Positions 54,594 to 62,747 of a stretch of 64,000 nt of DNA are shown piece by piece. Position numbers and translations under genes: made by a program. Every line of letters starts with the position of its first letter. Position 1 is the stretch's first letter. The notes below the pieces were generated by a model, which was not told the origin of the DNA, did no database searches, and worked only from the letters and a program-made list of their open reading frames with translations. Source of the DNA: Streptomyces sp. NBC_00358 (lineage in GTDB: Bacteria; Actinomycetota; Actinomycetes; Streptomycetales; Streptomycetaceae); the NCBI RefSeq assembly GCF_036099295.1, contig NZ_CP107976.1, positions 2,046,001 to 2,110,000 on the forward strand. Reading direction: 5' to 3'.

Positions 54594-56711
54594 TCAGGCC
54601 GCCTGCTCGTCCGGGCTTGCCGGCAAAGGCACTTGGGGTCCGTCGCACTCGCGCAGCCAGCGGCTCAGTACGTCGTGCACCCGCTCGGCGCCGACGAGTT
54701 CGGTGTCCGCGCCGACGAACTCGGTCTCCGTGAGCGCGAGTTCGGTGTTCGGGCCGACCGGCGTCGACAGGGCCACCGGGGAGAGCAGGAAGGGCCGCCC
54801 CTGGGCGCCGCCGAGGCCACCGTGGGAGCCGATCTGCTCCTCGAAGGCGAGGACTTCGCCCTCGGCGGGGTCGTACCACGAGTTGACCATGATGTCGGCG
54901 GTGTGCGGGAAGGAGTGTGTGCGCCGCACGGCGTCGGCGGCGCCGGGGCCGAAGTCGGCGAGGGGGCCCGGGTGTTCGTCGTCGAGGCGGTCCACCGGCA
55001 CCTCGGCTCCGTGCGCCCCGAGCACGAGCCCGCCGTGCTCCTCGCTGCGGACCAGGAGGAAGCCGACCCCGGGGTGGTTGGCGAGCGTGGACAGCAGCGC
55101 GGGGTGGCGGCGGTCGATCTCCTCCCGGCTCATCCGGTGCGGAACGTCGGGGAAGGAGACGAGACCGAGGTTGCCGGAGGCCAGGACGAGGGGCTCGGAG
55201 CGGCGCCCGGACGGCCCGAGCCGCTCCTCGCGCTCCTCGACCGGCCTGCGCAGCGCGGCGCGCACGGCGGTCCGCGCCTCGGCTCCGCTGTGGGTCCTCC
55301 GGGCCTTGCGGGGCACGGGCAGCCCGCAGCCGGCCCGGACCAGATTGCCGAGGCTGAGGCCGTAGCGGGCCAGGAACGTCTCACCCGGGCTCTGGCCGTG
55401 GTCGGAGAGGACGACGATCCGGTACGGGCGCGGGGCGTGCTCGGCGACCTTCTCGATCAGCGCGAGGGAGCGGTCGAGCCGCTGCAGGATCTTCTCGGTG
55501 TCCCGGCTCCGCGGCCCGGAGTGGTGCGCCACCTCGTCGTACGCCACCAGGTCCGCGTAGACCGCGTTGCGCCCGGCGAGCAGGTCGCCGATCACCGCGG
55601 CGACCACGACGTCCCGCTCGACGACCGTCGCGAAGGCGCGGACGAACGGGTACAGCCCGCCGCGCTTGACGCGGGGCCGTCGCCGCTTCAGGCGGGCCCA
55701 GGTGGACTGGCCCGTCTCCCGGAAGACCTCGGCGACGAACGACATCGCCGTACGGACGGCGTTGGCCGGGTCGGAGAAGTACGCGAAGTAGCCCGCCCGC
55801 GAACGGTTGTCCCGTCCCCTGCGCGCGGCCACGGACAGCACCAGGGCGAGCTCGTCGGCGCCGCCGCTGAAGAGGTTGCCGCGGCTCGCGCCGTCGGCGG
55901 TGAGCAGTCCCCCGTCGCCGGTGTGCTCGACGGCCCGGCGCTGGAGTTCGGCGGCGCCGGCCGGCCGGTTGCAGACCATGACCTCCTCGGTGTCCTTCTC
56001 GTACCACCGGAAGGCCGGGACGTCGTGGTTGCTGCCGTGCAGGATGCCCAGTTGGCTGGCGCCGGTCTGGCTGGACCAGTCGGTGCGCCACGGGGTGAGG
56101 CGGTGGGTCGGACGGGTACCGCCCAGCCACCGGGCCGCGGTCGGCATCAGGCCCTTGCCGATCGCCTCCAGCAGGACGTCGTGCCCGACCCCGTCGAGCT
56201 GGAGGAAGACCGCACCGTGCGTCGAGGGACCGGGCTGCCCGGCGGCGCGTCTGCGGCGGCGGTCGGCGAGACGGTAGAGCCGGCGGCGGTACGCGTCGTC
56301 GTCCCGTACGGCGAGAGCGGCGCCGGTGGCCGAGGCGACGGCGGACATCACGGCGGCCACCACGACGGCGGTCTCGGGGGCCGCCTCCCCGTGCCCGGAG
56401 GGGTTGAGCCGCAGGGCGATCAGCAGCAGCGAGCCGTTCAGGAAGAAGACGAGCAGGCCGAGAACCAGGGCGGGGACGAGCAGCAGGGCCCGCACGAGCA
56501 GGGGCCACACCAGCGAGGACAGAAGGCCGAAGACGCCCGCGCCCGCCGCGGCGGTGACGGCGATCCGGGTCGCGCTGTCCCCGCCGGCCGACTGCAACCG
56601 GAAGTCGGGCAGCGCGCCGGCCAGGACGAGCATCGTGACCGTGGACGCGGCCCACACCGTGATGCTTCGCCCCACCGCGCTGGCGAGGCGCCGCCACCGT
56701 CCTCCGTCCAC
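54594..56711 (-). CDS. Phage-holin-like membrane domain fused to alkaline-phosphatase-superfamily domain
   Basis: A 705-residue protein. The first about 135 residues have four hydrophobic spans and match the mycobacterial four-span holin-like (PF04020-type) proteins. The rest is an alkaline phosphatase/phosphodiesterase fold: 'GAVFLQLDGVGHDVLLEAI' with the first metal Asp, 'YADLVAYDEVAHHSGPRS' with Asp/His/His, and 'RIVVLSDHGQSPGETF' with Asp/His. Such nucleotide pyrophosphatase-type enzymes hydrolyse phosphomono- or diesters. The GTG start has 'GAGGTGGGC' upstream. The active domain topology (outside or inside) is not certain; substrate may be a lipid or polymer phosphoester. Confidence 0.82.
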   Translation of the reverse strand: MDGGRWRRLASAVGRSITVWAASTVTMLVLAGALPDFRLQSAGGDSATRIAVTAAAGAGVFGLLSSLVWPLLVRALLLVPALVLGLLVFFLNGSLLLIALRLNPSGHGEAAPETAVVVAAVMSAVASATGAALAVRDDDAYRRRLYRLADRRRRRAAGQPGPSTHGAVFLQLDGVGHDVLLEAIGKGLMPTAARWLGGTRPTHRLTPWRTDWSSQTGASQLGILHGSNHDVPAFRWYEKDTEEVMVCNRPAGAAELQRRAVEHTGDGGLLTADGASRGNLFSGGADELALVLSVAARRGRDNRSRAGYFAYFSDPANAVRTAMSFVAEVFRETGQSTWARLKRRRPRVKRGGLYPFVRAFATVVERDVVVAAVIGDLLAGRNAVYADLVAYDEVAHHSGPRSRDTEKILQRLDRSLALIEKVAEHAPRPYRIVVLSDHGQSPGETFLARYGLSLGNLVRAGCGLPVPRKARRTHSGAEARTAVRAALRRPVEEREERLGPSGRRSEPLVLASGNLGLVSFPDVPHRMSREEIDRRHPALLSTLANHPGVGFLLVRSEEHGGLVLGAHGAEVPVDRLDDEHPGPLADFGPGAADAVRRTHSFPHTADIMVNSWYDPAEGEVLAFEEQIGSHGGLGGAQGRPFLLSPVALSTPVGPNTELALTETEFVGADTELVGAERVHDVLSRWLRECDGPQVPLPASPDEQAA

Positions 56712-57430: not shown

Positions 57431-58204
57431 GTGCCGGTGGAGATCACCTGGTGGGGGCACGCCACCTGCACGCTGGAGGACTCCGGGACGCGTGTGCTCA
57501 CCGATCCGCTCTTCGCGCGCCGGCTCGCGCACCTGCGGCGCAGGCGCGGGGCGCCGCCCCCTCCCTCGGCGGCGGTCGCCGACGTGGCGCTCGTCTCCCA
57601 TCTGCACGCCGACCATCTGCATCTGCCCTCGCTGGCCCGGCTGGCTCCGGGCACCCGGCTGCTCGTGCCGCGCGGCGCCCCACGCTCGGTGCCCGGACTG
57701 CGCAGGCTGGACCATCTGCGGATCACCGAGGTCGCGCCCGGTGACCGCACCCGGGTCGGTGACCTGGTCGTCCGCACGGTTGCGGCACGGCACGACGGAC
57801 GGCGGCTGCCGATCGGACCGCACCGCTCCCCCGCCGTGGGGTACGTGGTCGAGGGCGAGGCACGGACGTACTTCGCCGGGGACACCGGGCTGTTCGCGTC
57901 GATGGCCGAAGAGGTCGGAGCGGTCGACGTGGCCCTGCTGCCGGTGGGCGGCTGGGGTCCGTATCTGGGCGAGGGCCATCTCGACGCGGGGCGTGCCGCC
58001 GAGGCGCTCGCCGCGCTGCGTCCGCGGAGCGCAGTGCCGGTGCACTACGGCACGTTCTGGCCCATCGGGATGGATGCCGTGCGCCCTCATGAATTCCACG
58101 CGCCGGGCGAGGAGTTCGTGCGCCTGGCGGCCGAGCGCGTGCCCCAGGTGGCGGTGCACCTCCTGGGGCACGGCGAGAGCGTGCGTCCGGAGGCCGCTCG
58201 GTGA
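57431..58204 (+). CDS. Metallo-beta-lactamase-fold hydrolase
   Basis: A 257-residue MBL-fold protein of the UlaG-like group. The metal motif is 'SHLHADHLHLP' (HxHxDH). Further ligands are in 'TVAARHDGR', 'YFAGDTGLF' and 'VPVHYGTF'. Cytoplasmic, no signal peptide. The GTG is behind an excellent AAGGAGG. Its stop overlaps the start of the DedA-type gene (GTGA), so the two are co-translated. Substrate unknown. Confidence 0.88.
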   Translation: MPVEITWWGHATCTLEDSGTRVLTDPLFARRLAHLRRRRGAPPPPSAAVADVALVSHLHADHLHLPSLARLAPGTRLLVPRGAPRSVPGLRRLDHLRITEVAPGDRTRVGDLVVRTVAARHDGRRLPIGPHRSPAVGYVVEGEARTYFAGDTGLFASMAEEVGAVDVALLPVGGWGPYLGEGHLDAGRAAEALAALRPRSAVPVHYGTFWPIGMDAVRPHEFHAPGEEFVRLAAERVPQVAVHLLGHGESVRPEAAR

Positions 58205-58902
58205 TTCCCTGGCCCGCCGCGGGGGCGGTGGTTCCCTCTCTGCTCCGGTCGGTCGGGGGCTCCGCTCCGGTGGTGTTCCTGTCCGCCACGGCCCCGGCCG
58301 TGCCACCGGAGTCCACCCAGCAGGCGATCGGGTATCCGTCCCTGTTCCTGCTGGTGCTGATCGGCGCGCTGGTACCGGTGGTACCGACGGGTGCGCTGGT
58401 GAGTTCGGCGGCGGTGGTGGCCTTCCATCGGACGTCGACGTCGCCCTTCGCGCTGCTGATGGTGTTCCTGGTGTCCTCGGTCGCCGCCTTCCTCGGCGAC
58501 ATATCGCTGTACTGGCTCGGTCGGCGCGGCATGGGTTCGAAGAACGGGTCGCGCTGGCTGGAGGCGATCCGGGTGCGCGCGCCCGAGGACCGGCTCGCTC
58601 AGGCGCAGCGCAAACTCGGCGAGCACGGCATCGCCGTCCTGGTCCTGTCGCGCCTGGTGCCGGCGGGCCGTATTCCGGTGATGCTGGCCTGCCTGATGGC
58701 GAAGATGCCGATGCGCGTCTTCGCCCGCGGGGACATCCCGGCCTGTCTCGCCTGGGCGGCGACGTACCAGATCATCGGCATCCTCGGCGGCTCGCTCTTC
58801 CCCGAGCCGTGGGAGGGCGTGGTCGCGGCGGTGGCCCTGACCCTCGCGATCAGCGCGGCGCCGAGCGTGTGGCGCAGGATCCGCAGGACGTCGGCGCCCT
58901 AG
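58201..58902 (+). CDS. DedA-family membrane protein
   Basis: A 233-residue integral membrane protein with about five hydrophobic spans. DedA signatures are 'SVAAFLGDISLYWLGRRG' and 'LSRLVPAGRIPVMLACLMAKMP', where the conserved Arg/Gly pattern 'F/LxRxxPxxR' is present. DedA proteins flip or transport phospholipid carriers and support envelope homeostasis. The GTG start overlaps the preceding stop. Its last part ends 23 bases before the convergent broken MBL gene. Confidence 0.88.
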   Translation: MIPWPAAGAVVPSLLRSVGGSAPVVFLSATAPAVPPESTQQAIGYPSLFLLVLIGALVPVVPTGALVSSAAVVAFHRTSTSPFALLMVFLVSSVAAFLGDISLYWLGRRGMGSKNGSRWLEAIRVRAPEDRLAQAQRKLGEHGIAVLVLSRLVPAGRIPVMLACLMAKMPMRVFARGDIPACLAWAATYQIIGILGGSLFPEPWEGVVAAVALTLAISAAPSVWRRIRRTSAP

Positions 58903-58925: not shown

Positions 58926-60039
58926 TCACTCCAGGACCCGGGAGCCTCCCACCGCCAGGTCCCGCAGGTCCTCCCGGGCCAGGCCCGCCCGTTGCCAGGC
59001 TGCCCGCACCCGTCGCAGGGGCTCCAGCACCGGTTCCGCGGAGAGCACGAACGTACCCCAGTGCATCGGTGCCATCCGCCGCGCTCTCAGGTCGACGGCC
59101 GCCCGCACCGCCTCTTCCGGGTCGCAGTGCACATCGCTCAGCCACCAACGGGGTCGTCCGCGCCGATGGGCAGGAGAGCGAGGTCGATCCCCGGATGGCA
59201 CTGCCCGATGCGGCCGAACCAGTGGCCGTATCCGGTGTCGCCCGCGAAGTACACCCGTTGTCCGCCGGGCGCCGCCAGGACCCAGCCGCCCCACAGCGAG
59301 CGGCAGGTGTCGGTGAGGGTGCGCTTGGACCAGTGGTGGGCGGGGACGAAGTCGAAGCGGACGCCGTCGAGTTCGGCCGCCCCCACCAGTCCAGCTCGGT
59401 GATCCGGGTGAACCGACGCCGTCTGAACCACCATCCGAGTCCGGCGGGGACGAACACCGCGGTGTCGCGCGGGAGTCGGCGCAGGGTCGGTGCGTCCAGA
59501 TGGTCGTAGTGGTTGTGGCTGATGACGACCGCGTCGACGCGTGGCAGGGCGCTCCAGGCCACGCCGACCGGGGTGATCCGGGCCGGGGTGCCCACGATCC
59601 TGCGGGACCAGACCGGGTCGGTGAGCACGGTGAGCCCGCCGATCCGGATCACCCAACTCGCGTGTCCCGCCCAGGAGACGGCGACCGTACGGGCCTCCAC
59701 GCGGGGCAGCGGTCCCGGCTCGAACGGCAGCAAGGGGATGTCGGCGAGCCCCTCGGCCCCCGGCCGCAGGGCGCCCTCGCGGGCGAAGCGCGCGAGGGCG
59801 CGGAGCCCCGGCAGCGGCGCGGTCAGCCGGTCCACGAAGGACCGGGGCCAGACACGCCGTTCGCCGAGCGGGCGCGGCTCGGGGAGCGGGGGCGGCTCCG
59901 CGAACGGGCGCGGCTCGGGGAGCGGGGGTGCGGGTGGAAGGAACGCCGGGTGTCCCGGTGCCTGGGCGGCGGGTGGCGGCGGGGGATCGCCGGTGTCCTG
60001 GGTCGTCGTGCTCGGGGCCGACTCGGACTGCCGCGTCAT
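58926..60039 (-). pseudogene. MBL-fold hydrolase (NAPE-PLD/UlaG-like) with two 1-base frameshifts
   Basis: The protein is continuous only if two single bases are restored. Part 1 (from ATG 60039) carries a Pro-rich start, 'SWAGHASWVIRIGG', 'TDPVWSRR' and 'ISHNHYDHLD'. After 'ELDWWG' the frame shifts at a run of five C (59380-59384); part 2 reads 'AELDGVRFDFVPAHHWSKRT' and 'FAGDTGYGHWF'. A second shift occurs at a run of four G (59150-59153); part 3 reads 'RWWLSDVHCDPEEAV' and 'PMHWGTF'. With both bases added the gene has 372 codons. Both lesions are homopolymer shortenings, so assembly error is as likely as real decay. The ATG overlaps the stop of the upstream gene (ATGA). Confidence 0.85.
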
Positions 60040-61283
60040 CGAGGGGACTCCCATCGCTGAGCATCGTCGCGGAGATCGTCGAAGGCCGACCCCAACAGGG
60101 TCAACGCGCTGTGCACATGCGGCAGTTCCAGTGGATCGGAGGAGGCGAGCGACTCCTCCCGCTCCTCGTCCGAGGAACCGAGCAGGGGCCCGGTGCCGAG
60201 GCGGACCCGGAGCGCGGCGAGGTCGTCGCCGAAGCGGTGTCCGCCCGGCGCGGGCATCCCCAGCCGGGCGGACAGGTAGTCCTCCAGGTCCTGCGCGTCG
60301 CCGACACCGTGCGCGCCGAGGGCGGTGCGCAGTGGCCCGAGGTCGACGTACAGGTGTCGGCCGGCCTGCGGGGGGCGCACCACGGCACCGGCGGCGCCCA
60401 CCAGGCGCTGCGCGGCGTCGGCGACGCGGGCGTGCAGGCGTACGGCCGCCGTGAGCCGCCCGGTGATCGCGGCGGGCTCGCCGAGCGCGTACGCGGCCGC
60501 CGCGGCGACCGGTTCGGCGACGCGCGCGCCGAGCACGGTGAGCACGTCGAGGACCCGGGAACGCAGCAGAGCGCCCGCGTCGTTGCCGGGGAACCGGGCG
60601 ACGGCGGCCGGCCAGCCCTGCGGCAGGAAGGCGCCCGCGAGGTCCGTGATCACGGTGACGTCGTCGGGGAGCATCTCGGCGGGGCTGAGCAGCACGGTGT
60701 CGTGCGGCCGGTGCAGGGTGTCGCGCCAGGTCTCGTCGCTGACGATGTGCAGTCCCTCGCCCGCCGCGGCCTCCACGGTCTCGTGCACCACCTCGGGCGG
60801 AGCGACGGTCGCGGTCGGGTCGTCGGCGACGGACAGCAGGAGCAGACGCGGGTCGCCGCCCTCCGCGCGGACCCTGCGGACGGTCTCCAGCAGGGCGTAC
60901 GGATCGGGGACGCCGCCGCACTCCGCCGGCGTCGCCACCCGGAACACGGATCTGCCCAGCAGCCGTGCCTGCGGCGCCCACCACGCGGCGCACGGGCGGG
61001 GCGCGAGGACATCGCCGCCGATGGCTCCGGTCAGCGCCAGCAGCAGCGCGGGGGCTCCGGGGGCGGCCACCACCCGGTCGGGTGCGGCGGGCAGCCCGCG
61101 CCGGGTCCAGTAGCCGCGGGCGGCGTCGAGGAGCGCGGGGCCGCCGCCGAACAGCGCGGCGTCGGAGCGGCCCGCGGCGTCGGCCAGCACGGACCGGAGT
61201 TCCGGCAGCACGGGCAGGCCCTGGTCGGGCAGCGGCGGCCCGTAGCGGACCGGTCCGTGGCCTTCCGGATCCGTCCGCCGCAT
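60036..61283 (-). CDS. Aminotransferase-fold protein without any lysine
   Basis: A 415-residue protein with the layout of a class I/II aminotransferase: 'GGGPALLDAARGYWTRRGLP' near the start, 'VAAPGAPALLLALTGAI', and 'HIVSDETWRDTL' (182-189), which corresponds to the SDE-x-Y/W motif holding the PLP ring nitrogen. The position of the Schiff-base lysine ('SxSK...GxR' in relatives) reads 'TDLAGAFLPQGW' (213-224). No lysine occurs anywhere in the protein. It cannot form the usual internal aldimine. ATG 61283 with 'GGAGGCAGGT' upstream is preferred over a TTG at 61451. It is coupled to the broken MBL gene by ATGA. Confidence 0.75.
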   Translation of the reverse strand: MRRTDPEGHGPVRYGPPLPDQGLPVLPELRSVLADAAGRSDAALFGGGPALLDAARGYWTRRGLPAAPDRVVAAPGAPALLLALTGAIGGDVLAPRPCAAWWAPQARLLGRSVFRVATPAECGGVPDPYALLETVRRVRAEGGDPRLLLLSVADDPTATVAPPEVVHETVEAAAGEGLHIVSDETWRDTLHRPHDTVLLSPAEMLPDDVTVITDLAGAFLPQGWPAAVARFPGNDAGALLRSRVLDVLTVLGARVAEPVAAAAAYALGEPAAITGRLTAAVRLHARVADAAQRLVGAAGAVVRPPQAGRHLYVDLGPLRTALGAHGVGDAQDLEDYLSARLGMPAPGGHRFGDDLAALRVRLGTGPLLGSSDEEREESLASSDPLELPHVHSALTLLGSAFDDLRDDAQRWESPR

Positions 61284-61589
61284 ACCTGCCTCCGCACCGT
61301 GGGTGCTGCCGTGCCCTGTTCCGGAGCCTGCCTGTCCGTACGGTTCCGGGTGTTCGTGCCCCCGCCCGCGGTTCACCCCGCGCGGACCGCCGTCCCGCGC
61401 CGTGGGCCTCTCGGCTTCCAGCGGCATGCCGTCCCAGGAGTGTTCTCGCAAGGGTCCTCGGAAGTGGTCTCCGGAGGGGGCTCCGCAGGGCTGGCGGGAG
61501 AGCTGTCGGGAGGGCTGTCCTGAGCGTGCCCGTCACCCCGTCGCCCGTCGACCGTCGCGCCGTCGACCGTCACCGTGCCGCCCGCCCGG
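61284..61589. other. 306-base intergenic region
   Basis: The gap between the lysine-free aminotransferase-like gene and the wall-protein gene contains a repeated 'tcgaccgtc/cgccgtcgaccgtc' word (about 61545-61570) and the series 'ggaagtggtctccggagggggctcc'. An in-frame TTG at 61451 could extend the aminotransferase-like protein by 56 low-complexity residues. I see no other gene. Confidence 0.4.
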
Positions 61590-62747
61590 CTACGCCCGCC
61601 GCCGGTGCGGTCGGCGCAACCGGTGCAGCCGATGGGCGGCCCCGCCCAAGGCCCCGGCGATCAGCACACCGCCGGCGATCAGGGCGGGCACGGAGTCGGT
61701 GAACACGCCGCCCTCACCGGCCCGCACACCGCGCTGGACGGTGGGGGGACGCTCACCCGCACCGGTGCCCGCGCCGGTATCGGCACCGGCCCCGCCGTCG
61801 GGGCTGTGCGTCGCCGTGCCACCCCGCGCCACGGAGTACGACGCGGTCCACTGCTTCCCGTGACCGCCCTGCGGCGCGGGACAGACGCCGTCCACGCTCC
61901 ACCGCCCGTCCGCGCCTCCGGTGCCGGGTCCCGTCGTGTCCGGACCGGCCTTGTCCGGGGCCACCGTGCCGGGGGCCGAGGTGTCGGGACCCACCGAGTC
62001 CGGGCCGACCGTGTCGGGACCCACCGTGTCGGGTCCGACATCGTCCGGGCCCACGGTGTCCGGACCGACGGTGTCCGGACCGACGGTGTCCGGCCCCACC
62101 GTGTCCGGCCCGACGTCGTCAGGGGTCGCCGGGTCCGGTACGACCGGGGCGCCGGCGACGGGAGCGGGTGCCAGGGCATCGGGTGCGACGGTGTCCGAGC
62201 CACCGGGGTAGGCACTCACCCCGTCCGCGCTCCCCACGTCGGACTCCTTCGCGACGAGGTTCTTCGCATCGGACGTCTTCGCGTCGGGATTCTTCGCGTC
62301 GGAAGCGCCCGACGCGCCGGAGCCCGACCTGTCGGAGCCCACCGGGCCGGGACCCACCGTGTCGGGGACCACCGTGTCGGAGCCGATCCCCGCGTCGGAC
62401 CCCGTCGCGGCGGGATCGCCCAGGGTGTCGGACGCTCCCCCGGACTCGCCGGAAGGGATGTGCGCCGTACCGCTGTAGGAGGCGGCGCCGGCGGTACCCG
62501 GGTCGGTGTCCTCGACGCGGTGCAGTTGGACCTTGCCCTCCTCGAAACCCTGGGAGCTGGCGTCGATCAGGTCGGGCGGGGTCCCCGTGATCGCGTCGCA
62601 GGTGACCGTGATGGTGACGGTGCCGCCGGGTTCGACGGAGCCCGGACTGACCTGCGCGGCCGGATCCGCGGACGCGCCCGACGCGGCGGCGCCCAGGGCT
62701 GCGCCGGCCAGGGCGGTGGCGTACAGGGCACGGGCGGTACGGCGCAT
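61590..62747 (-). CDS. Secreted, wall-anchored repeat protein
   Basis: A 385-residue surface protein. Signal peptide about 1-27 ('ATALAGAALGAAASGASA'); a short N-terminal domain with 'VTITVTCDAITG'; a Ser/Asp/Ala/Lys-rich stretch; an array of about ten five-residue repeats of the type D-T-V-G-P (about 210-265); a Cys-containing segment ('SVDGVCPAPQGGHGKQWTASYS'), broken here only by my quoting limit at 22 residues so see 'VDGVCPAPQGG'; and a C-terminal hydrophobic helix followed by a strongly basic tail ('HRLHRLRRPHRRRA'). No LAxTG motif, so anchoring is by the membrane helix. The repeats resemble a Pro-rich wall-spanning spacer. No function can be assigned. Confidence 0.8.
   Translation of the reverse strand: MRRTARALYATALAGAALGAAASGASADPAAQVSPGSVEPGGTVTITVTCDAITGTPPDLIDASSQGFEEGKVQLHRVEDTDPGTAGAASYSGTAHIPSGESGGASDTLGDPAATGSDAGIGSDTVVPDTVGPGPVGSDRSGSGASGASDAKNPDAKTSDAKNLVAKESDVGSADGVSAYPGGSDTVAPDALAPAPVAGAPVVPDPATPDDVGPDTVGPDTVGPDTVGPDTVGPDDVGPDTVGPDTVGPDSVGPDTSAPGTVAPDKAGPDTTGPGTGGADGRWSVDGVCPAPQGGHGKQWTASYSVARGGTATHSPDGGAGADTGAGTGAGERPPTVQRGVRAGEGGVFTDSVPALIAGGVLIAGALGGAAHRLHRLRRPHRRRA
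61930..62110. repeat. 15-bp tandem repeats inside the wall-protein gene
   Basis: The unit GTGTCCGGACCGACG and near-identical forms repeat in register with the reading frame (15 bp = 5 codons, encoding D-T-V-G-P). About ten copies are present. Several adjacent copies are identical at DNA level, so copy number may vary between strains. Confidence 0.85.

Follow-up and report, generated by a model that had tools for sequence, protein, structure and literature searches.

It is already known that an enzyme fold may be kept by a protein that is not an enzyme, for example in LCB1 (SPTLC1) of serine palmitoyltransferase, a fold-type-I protein that is maintained although it lacks the PLP lysine and that forms heterodimers with a catalytic homologue (PMC3794620). 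A fold-type-I protein of 415 amino acids that likewise lacks this lysine is encoded in the 64,000-nucleotide stretch of Streptomyces sp. NBC_00358 analysed here (the window); unlike LCB1, it has no such homologue co-distributed with it among the matches listed. Its whole fold is shared (Z about 40) with PLP-dependent class I/II aminotransferases, namely the aspartate aminotransferase (AspAT) of Thermus (1gck, 1bjw) and the prephenate aminotransferase of Arabidopsis (5wml, 5wmk). Compared with aminotransferases of family PF00155, the pseudoenzyme keeps the Asp of the SDE motif and the Arg that binds the substrate carboxylate, whereas the Schiff-base Lys and five other contacts are replaced and no Lys is conserved. 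The nearest relatives form a Lys-bearing clade of Streptomycetaceae and other actinobacterial paralogues (e.g. L071 and L127), of the same length and about 36-45% identical. Unlike the pseudoenzyme, these contain the motifs PDNPT, SDEIY, GLSK and GWRIG, possess 2 to 11 Lys and are not located beside a NAPE-PLD-like gene.

The usual neighbour of the pseudoenzyme gene is a NAPE-PLD-like MBL-fold gene, here named MBLa. The motifs HNHYDH, HHW, AGDTGY, MHWGTF and PRW..DPEEAV are common to human NAPE-PLD, bacterial NAPE-PLD-like or UPF0173 proteins and the intact MBLa orthologues, while MBLa differs from these known proteins by a proline-rich N-terminus and, in the window, by a frameshifted copy. 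No description of the pseudoenzyme family was found among the open-access papers searched. The reading favoured here, with confidence a little better than even, is that the protein represents a family-wide fold-type-I pseudoenzyme with a ligand-sensing or scaffold function, usually but not only for the NAPE-PLD-like hydrolase.

Gene, predicted fold and orthologues

The pseudoenzyme gene (60036..61283, minus strand) starts with an ATG at 61283 and ends with a stop codon at 60038-60036. A GGAGG ribosome-binding site (61289..61293, minus strand) is read directly 5 nt before the ATG. An N-terminal extension of 56 residues is unlikely, because the orthologues begin at the same, nearly invariant Met. 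The first-pass annotation had described an SDETW motif without the Schiff-base Lys and without any Lys in 415 residues, and this description is confirmed: the ORF encodes 0 Lys in 415 residues, SDETW is present, and in the alignment the Schiff-base position is occupied by Gly217, within DLAG where the Lys-bearing relatives have GLSK. The match to PF00155 (E 6e-07) exceeds the family cut-off, and proteins of this type will therefore probably be labelled PLP-dependent aminotransferases in annotations, although their cofactor site is dismantled. Structure prediction, which the same annotation had proposed as a check, gave the full fold-type-I architecture: the AlphaFold2 model (pLDDT 93.4, pTM 0.91) comprises a complete aminotransferase fold, and its best structural matches are aspartate and prephenate aminotransferases (best Z 41, over 350 residues).

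In total, 172 loci drawn from the genus, the family and the class were read; of 150 genomes from the genus, 143 contained a match. About 115 distinct orthologues, 46-95% identical, are found in Streptomyces and other Streptomycetaceae, and none carries the Schiff-base Lys (0 of 114 distinct orthologues, and also 0 in two intermediates, L133 and L134). The earlier proposal that the protein cannot be a normal PLP enzyme is supported.

Cofactor site

Eight positions of the cofactor site were tallied in 114 distinct sequences using the numbering of Thermus AspAT, with residue roles and numbers that we take from general knowledge of the enzyme family. The Schiff-base residue K234 is replaced by Gly in 88 sequences and by Ala in 21. 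N175 is Asp in 112 of 114 (D155 here), Y206 is Trp in 85 and Tyr in 15, and the phosphate-binding R242 is Pro in 109 of 114 (P225 here). The stacking Trp has become Ala (70), Pro (38) or also Ser, and the Ser of the cofactor loop is Ala in 91 of 114. Six of the eight positions are thus replaced; only the Asp facing the PLP ring (D203 in Thermus, D183 here; 114 of 114) and the loop residue Gly76 stay. Of the 114 sequences, 110 retain the Arg that binds the substrate carboxylate (R359). The features of a PLP aminotransferase that remain are the fold, the pyridine-nitrogen Asp and the substrate-carboxylate Arg, while the Schiff-base Lys is missing, together with the phosphate Arg, the stacking aromatic residue and the Asn and Tyr that contact O3'. 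Binding of PLP, one of two ligands suggested by the first-pass annotation, is therefore unlikely, since six of the eight contacts are replaced. The other suggestion was an amino-acid-like ligand, which may bind because R359 is kept.

Lys-less enzymes of fold type I that use PMP exist, for example ColD, and this precedent in the same fold could be extended to the present protein, which might still be an enzyme that performs cofactor-independent chemistry or holds PLP or PMP non-covalently in a remodelled pocket. The invariant pyridine-nitrogen Asp and the kept carboxylate Arg are consistent with such a function, as is the conservation of the replacements D155 and P225 at old cofactor positions. 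However, the replacements extend to the phosphate Arg, to both residues at O3' (Asn and Tyr), to the loop Ser and to the stacking aromatic residue, no His stands in place of the Lys, and Asp183 may be structural; continued catalysis is considered unlikely. The replacement residues point to new constraint rather than drift in the old cofactor site, because they are themselves conserved.

Neighbouring NAPE-PLD-like gene

MBLa (58926..60039, minus strand) belongs to PF12706 and matches human NAPE-PLD (4qn9) with E values of about 1e-59 to 1.1e-58. The metal-ligand motifs of NAPE-PLD align in the orthologue at locus L004, and the protein is close to NAPE-PLD in sequence and metal ligands, with hydrolysis of NAPE as a putative activity. 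The stop codon of the pseudoenzyme gene and the start codon of MBLa overlap in an ATGA (60036..60039, minus strand) that is read directly in the window and recurs in 47 of the 50 orthologues with identities of 68% or more. At nearly all loci MBLa follows the pseudoenzyme gene on the same strand, and it is never found beside the Lys-bearing relatives. Among 81 genomes of the family, 38 possess both genes, 3 the pseudoenzyme only, none MBLa only and 40 neither; these classes are clustered by descent, and the distribution may go back to the acquisition of a syntenic block on a single occasion.

The translational coupling to an MBL-fold protein that had been noted for this locus therefore extends across the family in the ATGA and in co-distribution, but it is not obligate. 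Relative to the closest relative, the window copy of MBLa carries two one-base deletions, near 59381 and 59153, that break its frame twice, while the orthologues are intact; the deletions are either real mutations or sequencing errors. Pseudoenzyme genes without an adjacent MBLa are found at loci L048, L057, L061, L070, L087, L097, L101 and L123, the copy at L087 being in pieces, and the lineages concerned fall on at least three separate branches. Accordingly, a chaperone or inhibitor dedicated to the NAPE-PLD-like hydrolase only, as the ATGA in close relatives, the adjacency and the co-distribution might suggest, is rather improbable: the pseudoenzyme is conserved without the hydrolase on those branches, and this genome itself carries a frameshifted hydrolase gene. 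It counts against the favoured reading that three loci, L305 (G037), L306 (G041) and L308 (G010), keep MBLa with the upstream pseudoenzyme absent or present as a remnant.

Phylogeny and selection

Four paralogues encoded in this genome served to root the phylogenetic tree. The proteins without the Lys form one clade with a support of 100/100, nested within the Lys-bearing clades, and therefore this tree shows a single loss of the catalytic Lys, from within a clade of aminotransferase-like proteins that carry it. Besides the genus of the window, the Lys-less clade is represented in at least eight further genera of Streptomycetaceae and is absent from the other genera sampled. L133 and L134, both from one genus, branch first within it. 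They have lost the Lys, Asn, Tyr, loop Ser and Trp while the phosphate Arg (GWRxG) and LRFR are kept. A route from enzyme to non-enzyme can thus be traced from Lys-bearing relatives, by way of Lys-less proteins with a phosphate Arg, to the fully remodelled clade.

This genome encodes 22 PF00155 proteins, and the Lys is present in each of the 13 that were amenable to alignment. An active Lys-bearing PLP enzyme encoded elsewhere might form a heterodimer with the pseudoenzyme, which would serve, like LCB1, as a non-catalytic subunit lending residues or stability. Active sites are shared across the dimers of fold type I, serine palmitoyltransferase provides a precedent for a subunit without the Lys (PMC3794620), and R359 and D183 are kept. 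Yet the nearest Lys-bearing paralogue clade occurs, among the matches listed, in a minority of the genomes with the pseudoenzyme, the closest Lys-bearing relative that this genome encodes is only distantly related (E 7e-46 against the clade profile), and no aminotransferase gene adjoins; this arrangement is judged quite improbable.

Pairwise dN/dS values of 0.09-0.33 among the pseudoenzymes, compared with 0.10-0.27 among the Lys-bearing relatives, indicate that the gene is under purifying selection. The first-pass annotation had allowed that orthologues might possess the Lys and that this copy had simply decayed. Decay of the window copy is ruled out, because every orthologue lacks the Lys and the gene appears to be maintained by selection.

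Absence of lysine

The mean Lys content of the 42 window genes encoding at least 200 amino acids is 2.0%, from which the probability of finding none in 415 residues is about 2e-4, and among the 32 window genes of at least 300 amino acids the pseudoenzyme gene alone has zero Lys. The number of Lys per distinct orthologue (n = 116) is 0 in 71, 1 in 37, 2 in 7 and 3 in one. Complete absence of Lys is typical of the family but not absolute; absence of the Schiff-base Lys, by contrast, is absolute across the orthologue set. Lys makes up 0.11% of the residues in the pseudoenzymes, compared with 0.97% in the Lys-bearing relatives and 0.85% in the adjoining MBL protein. Asn (0.16% against 1.07% in the Lys-bearing relatives) and Ile (0.81% against 3.01%) are depleted in parallel, and GC at the first codon position is raised. 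The zero count is therefore largely compositional and adds little in itself; on the simplest account, the composition drifted once the catalytic Lys had been lost. Actinobacteria commonly possess lysine deserts (PMC10665810). A specifically selected trait, for example the avoidance of pupylation, was considered and rejected, as Asn and Ile are depleted too. A gene decaying with residual conservation, to which GC-rich drift with depletion of Lys, Asn and Ile might be attributed, is highly improbable and is refuted for the family by more than 110 intact orthologues, by dN/dS of 0.09-0.33 and by strongly conserved clade-specific residues. Against the favoured reading of a ligand-sensing or scaffold pseudoenzyme, it counts that the composition appears to have drifted to an unusual degree.

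Proposed role and candidate partner surface

After loss of the Lys, different but again conserved residues took the place of the remaining PLP contacts, whereas purifying selection preserved the fold, the PLP-ring Asp and the carboxylate Arg. The protein would carry out no PLP chemistry and would work as a binding protein. Most likely it would sense a small ligand, either a carboxylate or an amino-acid-like compound, in the former active site, or dock a partner through helices 128-140 and 163-175 and thereby modulate it, or both. In most cases this partner would be the NAPE-PLD-like hydrolase that is translated together with it. A further role or partner is probably needed in the lineages that lack MBLa, because several of them keep the protein after loss of the hydrolase. 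A more specific version, again family-wide, in which an amino- or keto-acid signal is read in the dead transaminase pocket and controls hydrolysis of N-acyl-phospholipids by the NAPE-PLD-like phospholipase in Streptomyces, is put forward tentatively and is doubtful as it stands. The pair nevertheless points to an unstudied and directly testable NAPE-PLD-like phospholipase system in Streptomyces.

Residues that are conserved in the pseudoenzyme clade only are concentrated in PDPYALLETVRRVR (helix 128-140) and in helix 163-175, and from conservation and secondary structure these two helices form a putative partner surface. Relaxation of the helix surface was sought in the lineages lacking MBLa, and none was found among the 8 sequences available, one of them at a contig edge (mismatch 0.048 vs 0.027, p 0.88). 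The conserved surface may thus not serve the MBL protein, since it is unrelaxed where that protein is missing, and its use as a docking site for MBLa is, on these few sequences, unsupported.

Other genes around the locus

Comparison of neighbourhoods identified two conserved neighbours outside the pair. MBLb (57431..58204, plus strand) is a second MBL-fold gene, of the NAPE-PLD/UPF0173 type and convergent with the pair, and it overlaps by 4 bp with a gene for a VTT-domain (DedA-like) membrane protein (58201..58902, plus strand). On the minus strand, 54594-56711 encodes a 705-aa protein that combines a Phage_holin_4_2 domain with a type I phosphodiesterase/nucleotide pyrophosphatase domain. Finally, the gene at 61590-62747 (minus strand), whose secreted or anchored product contains numerous DTVGPD repeats, is located upstream of the pseudoenzyme gene only in close relatives.
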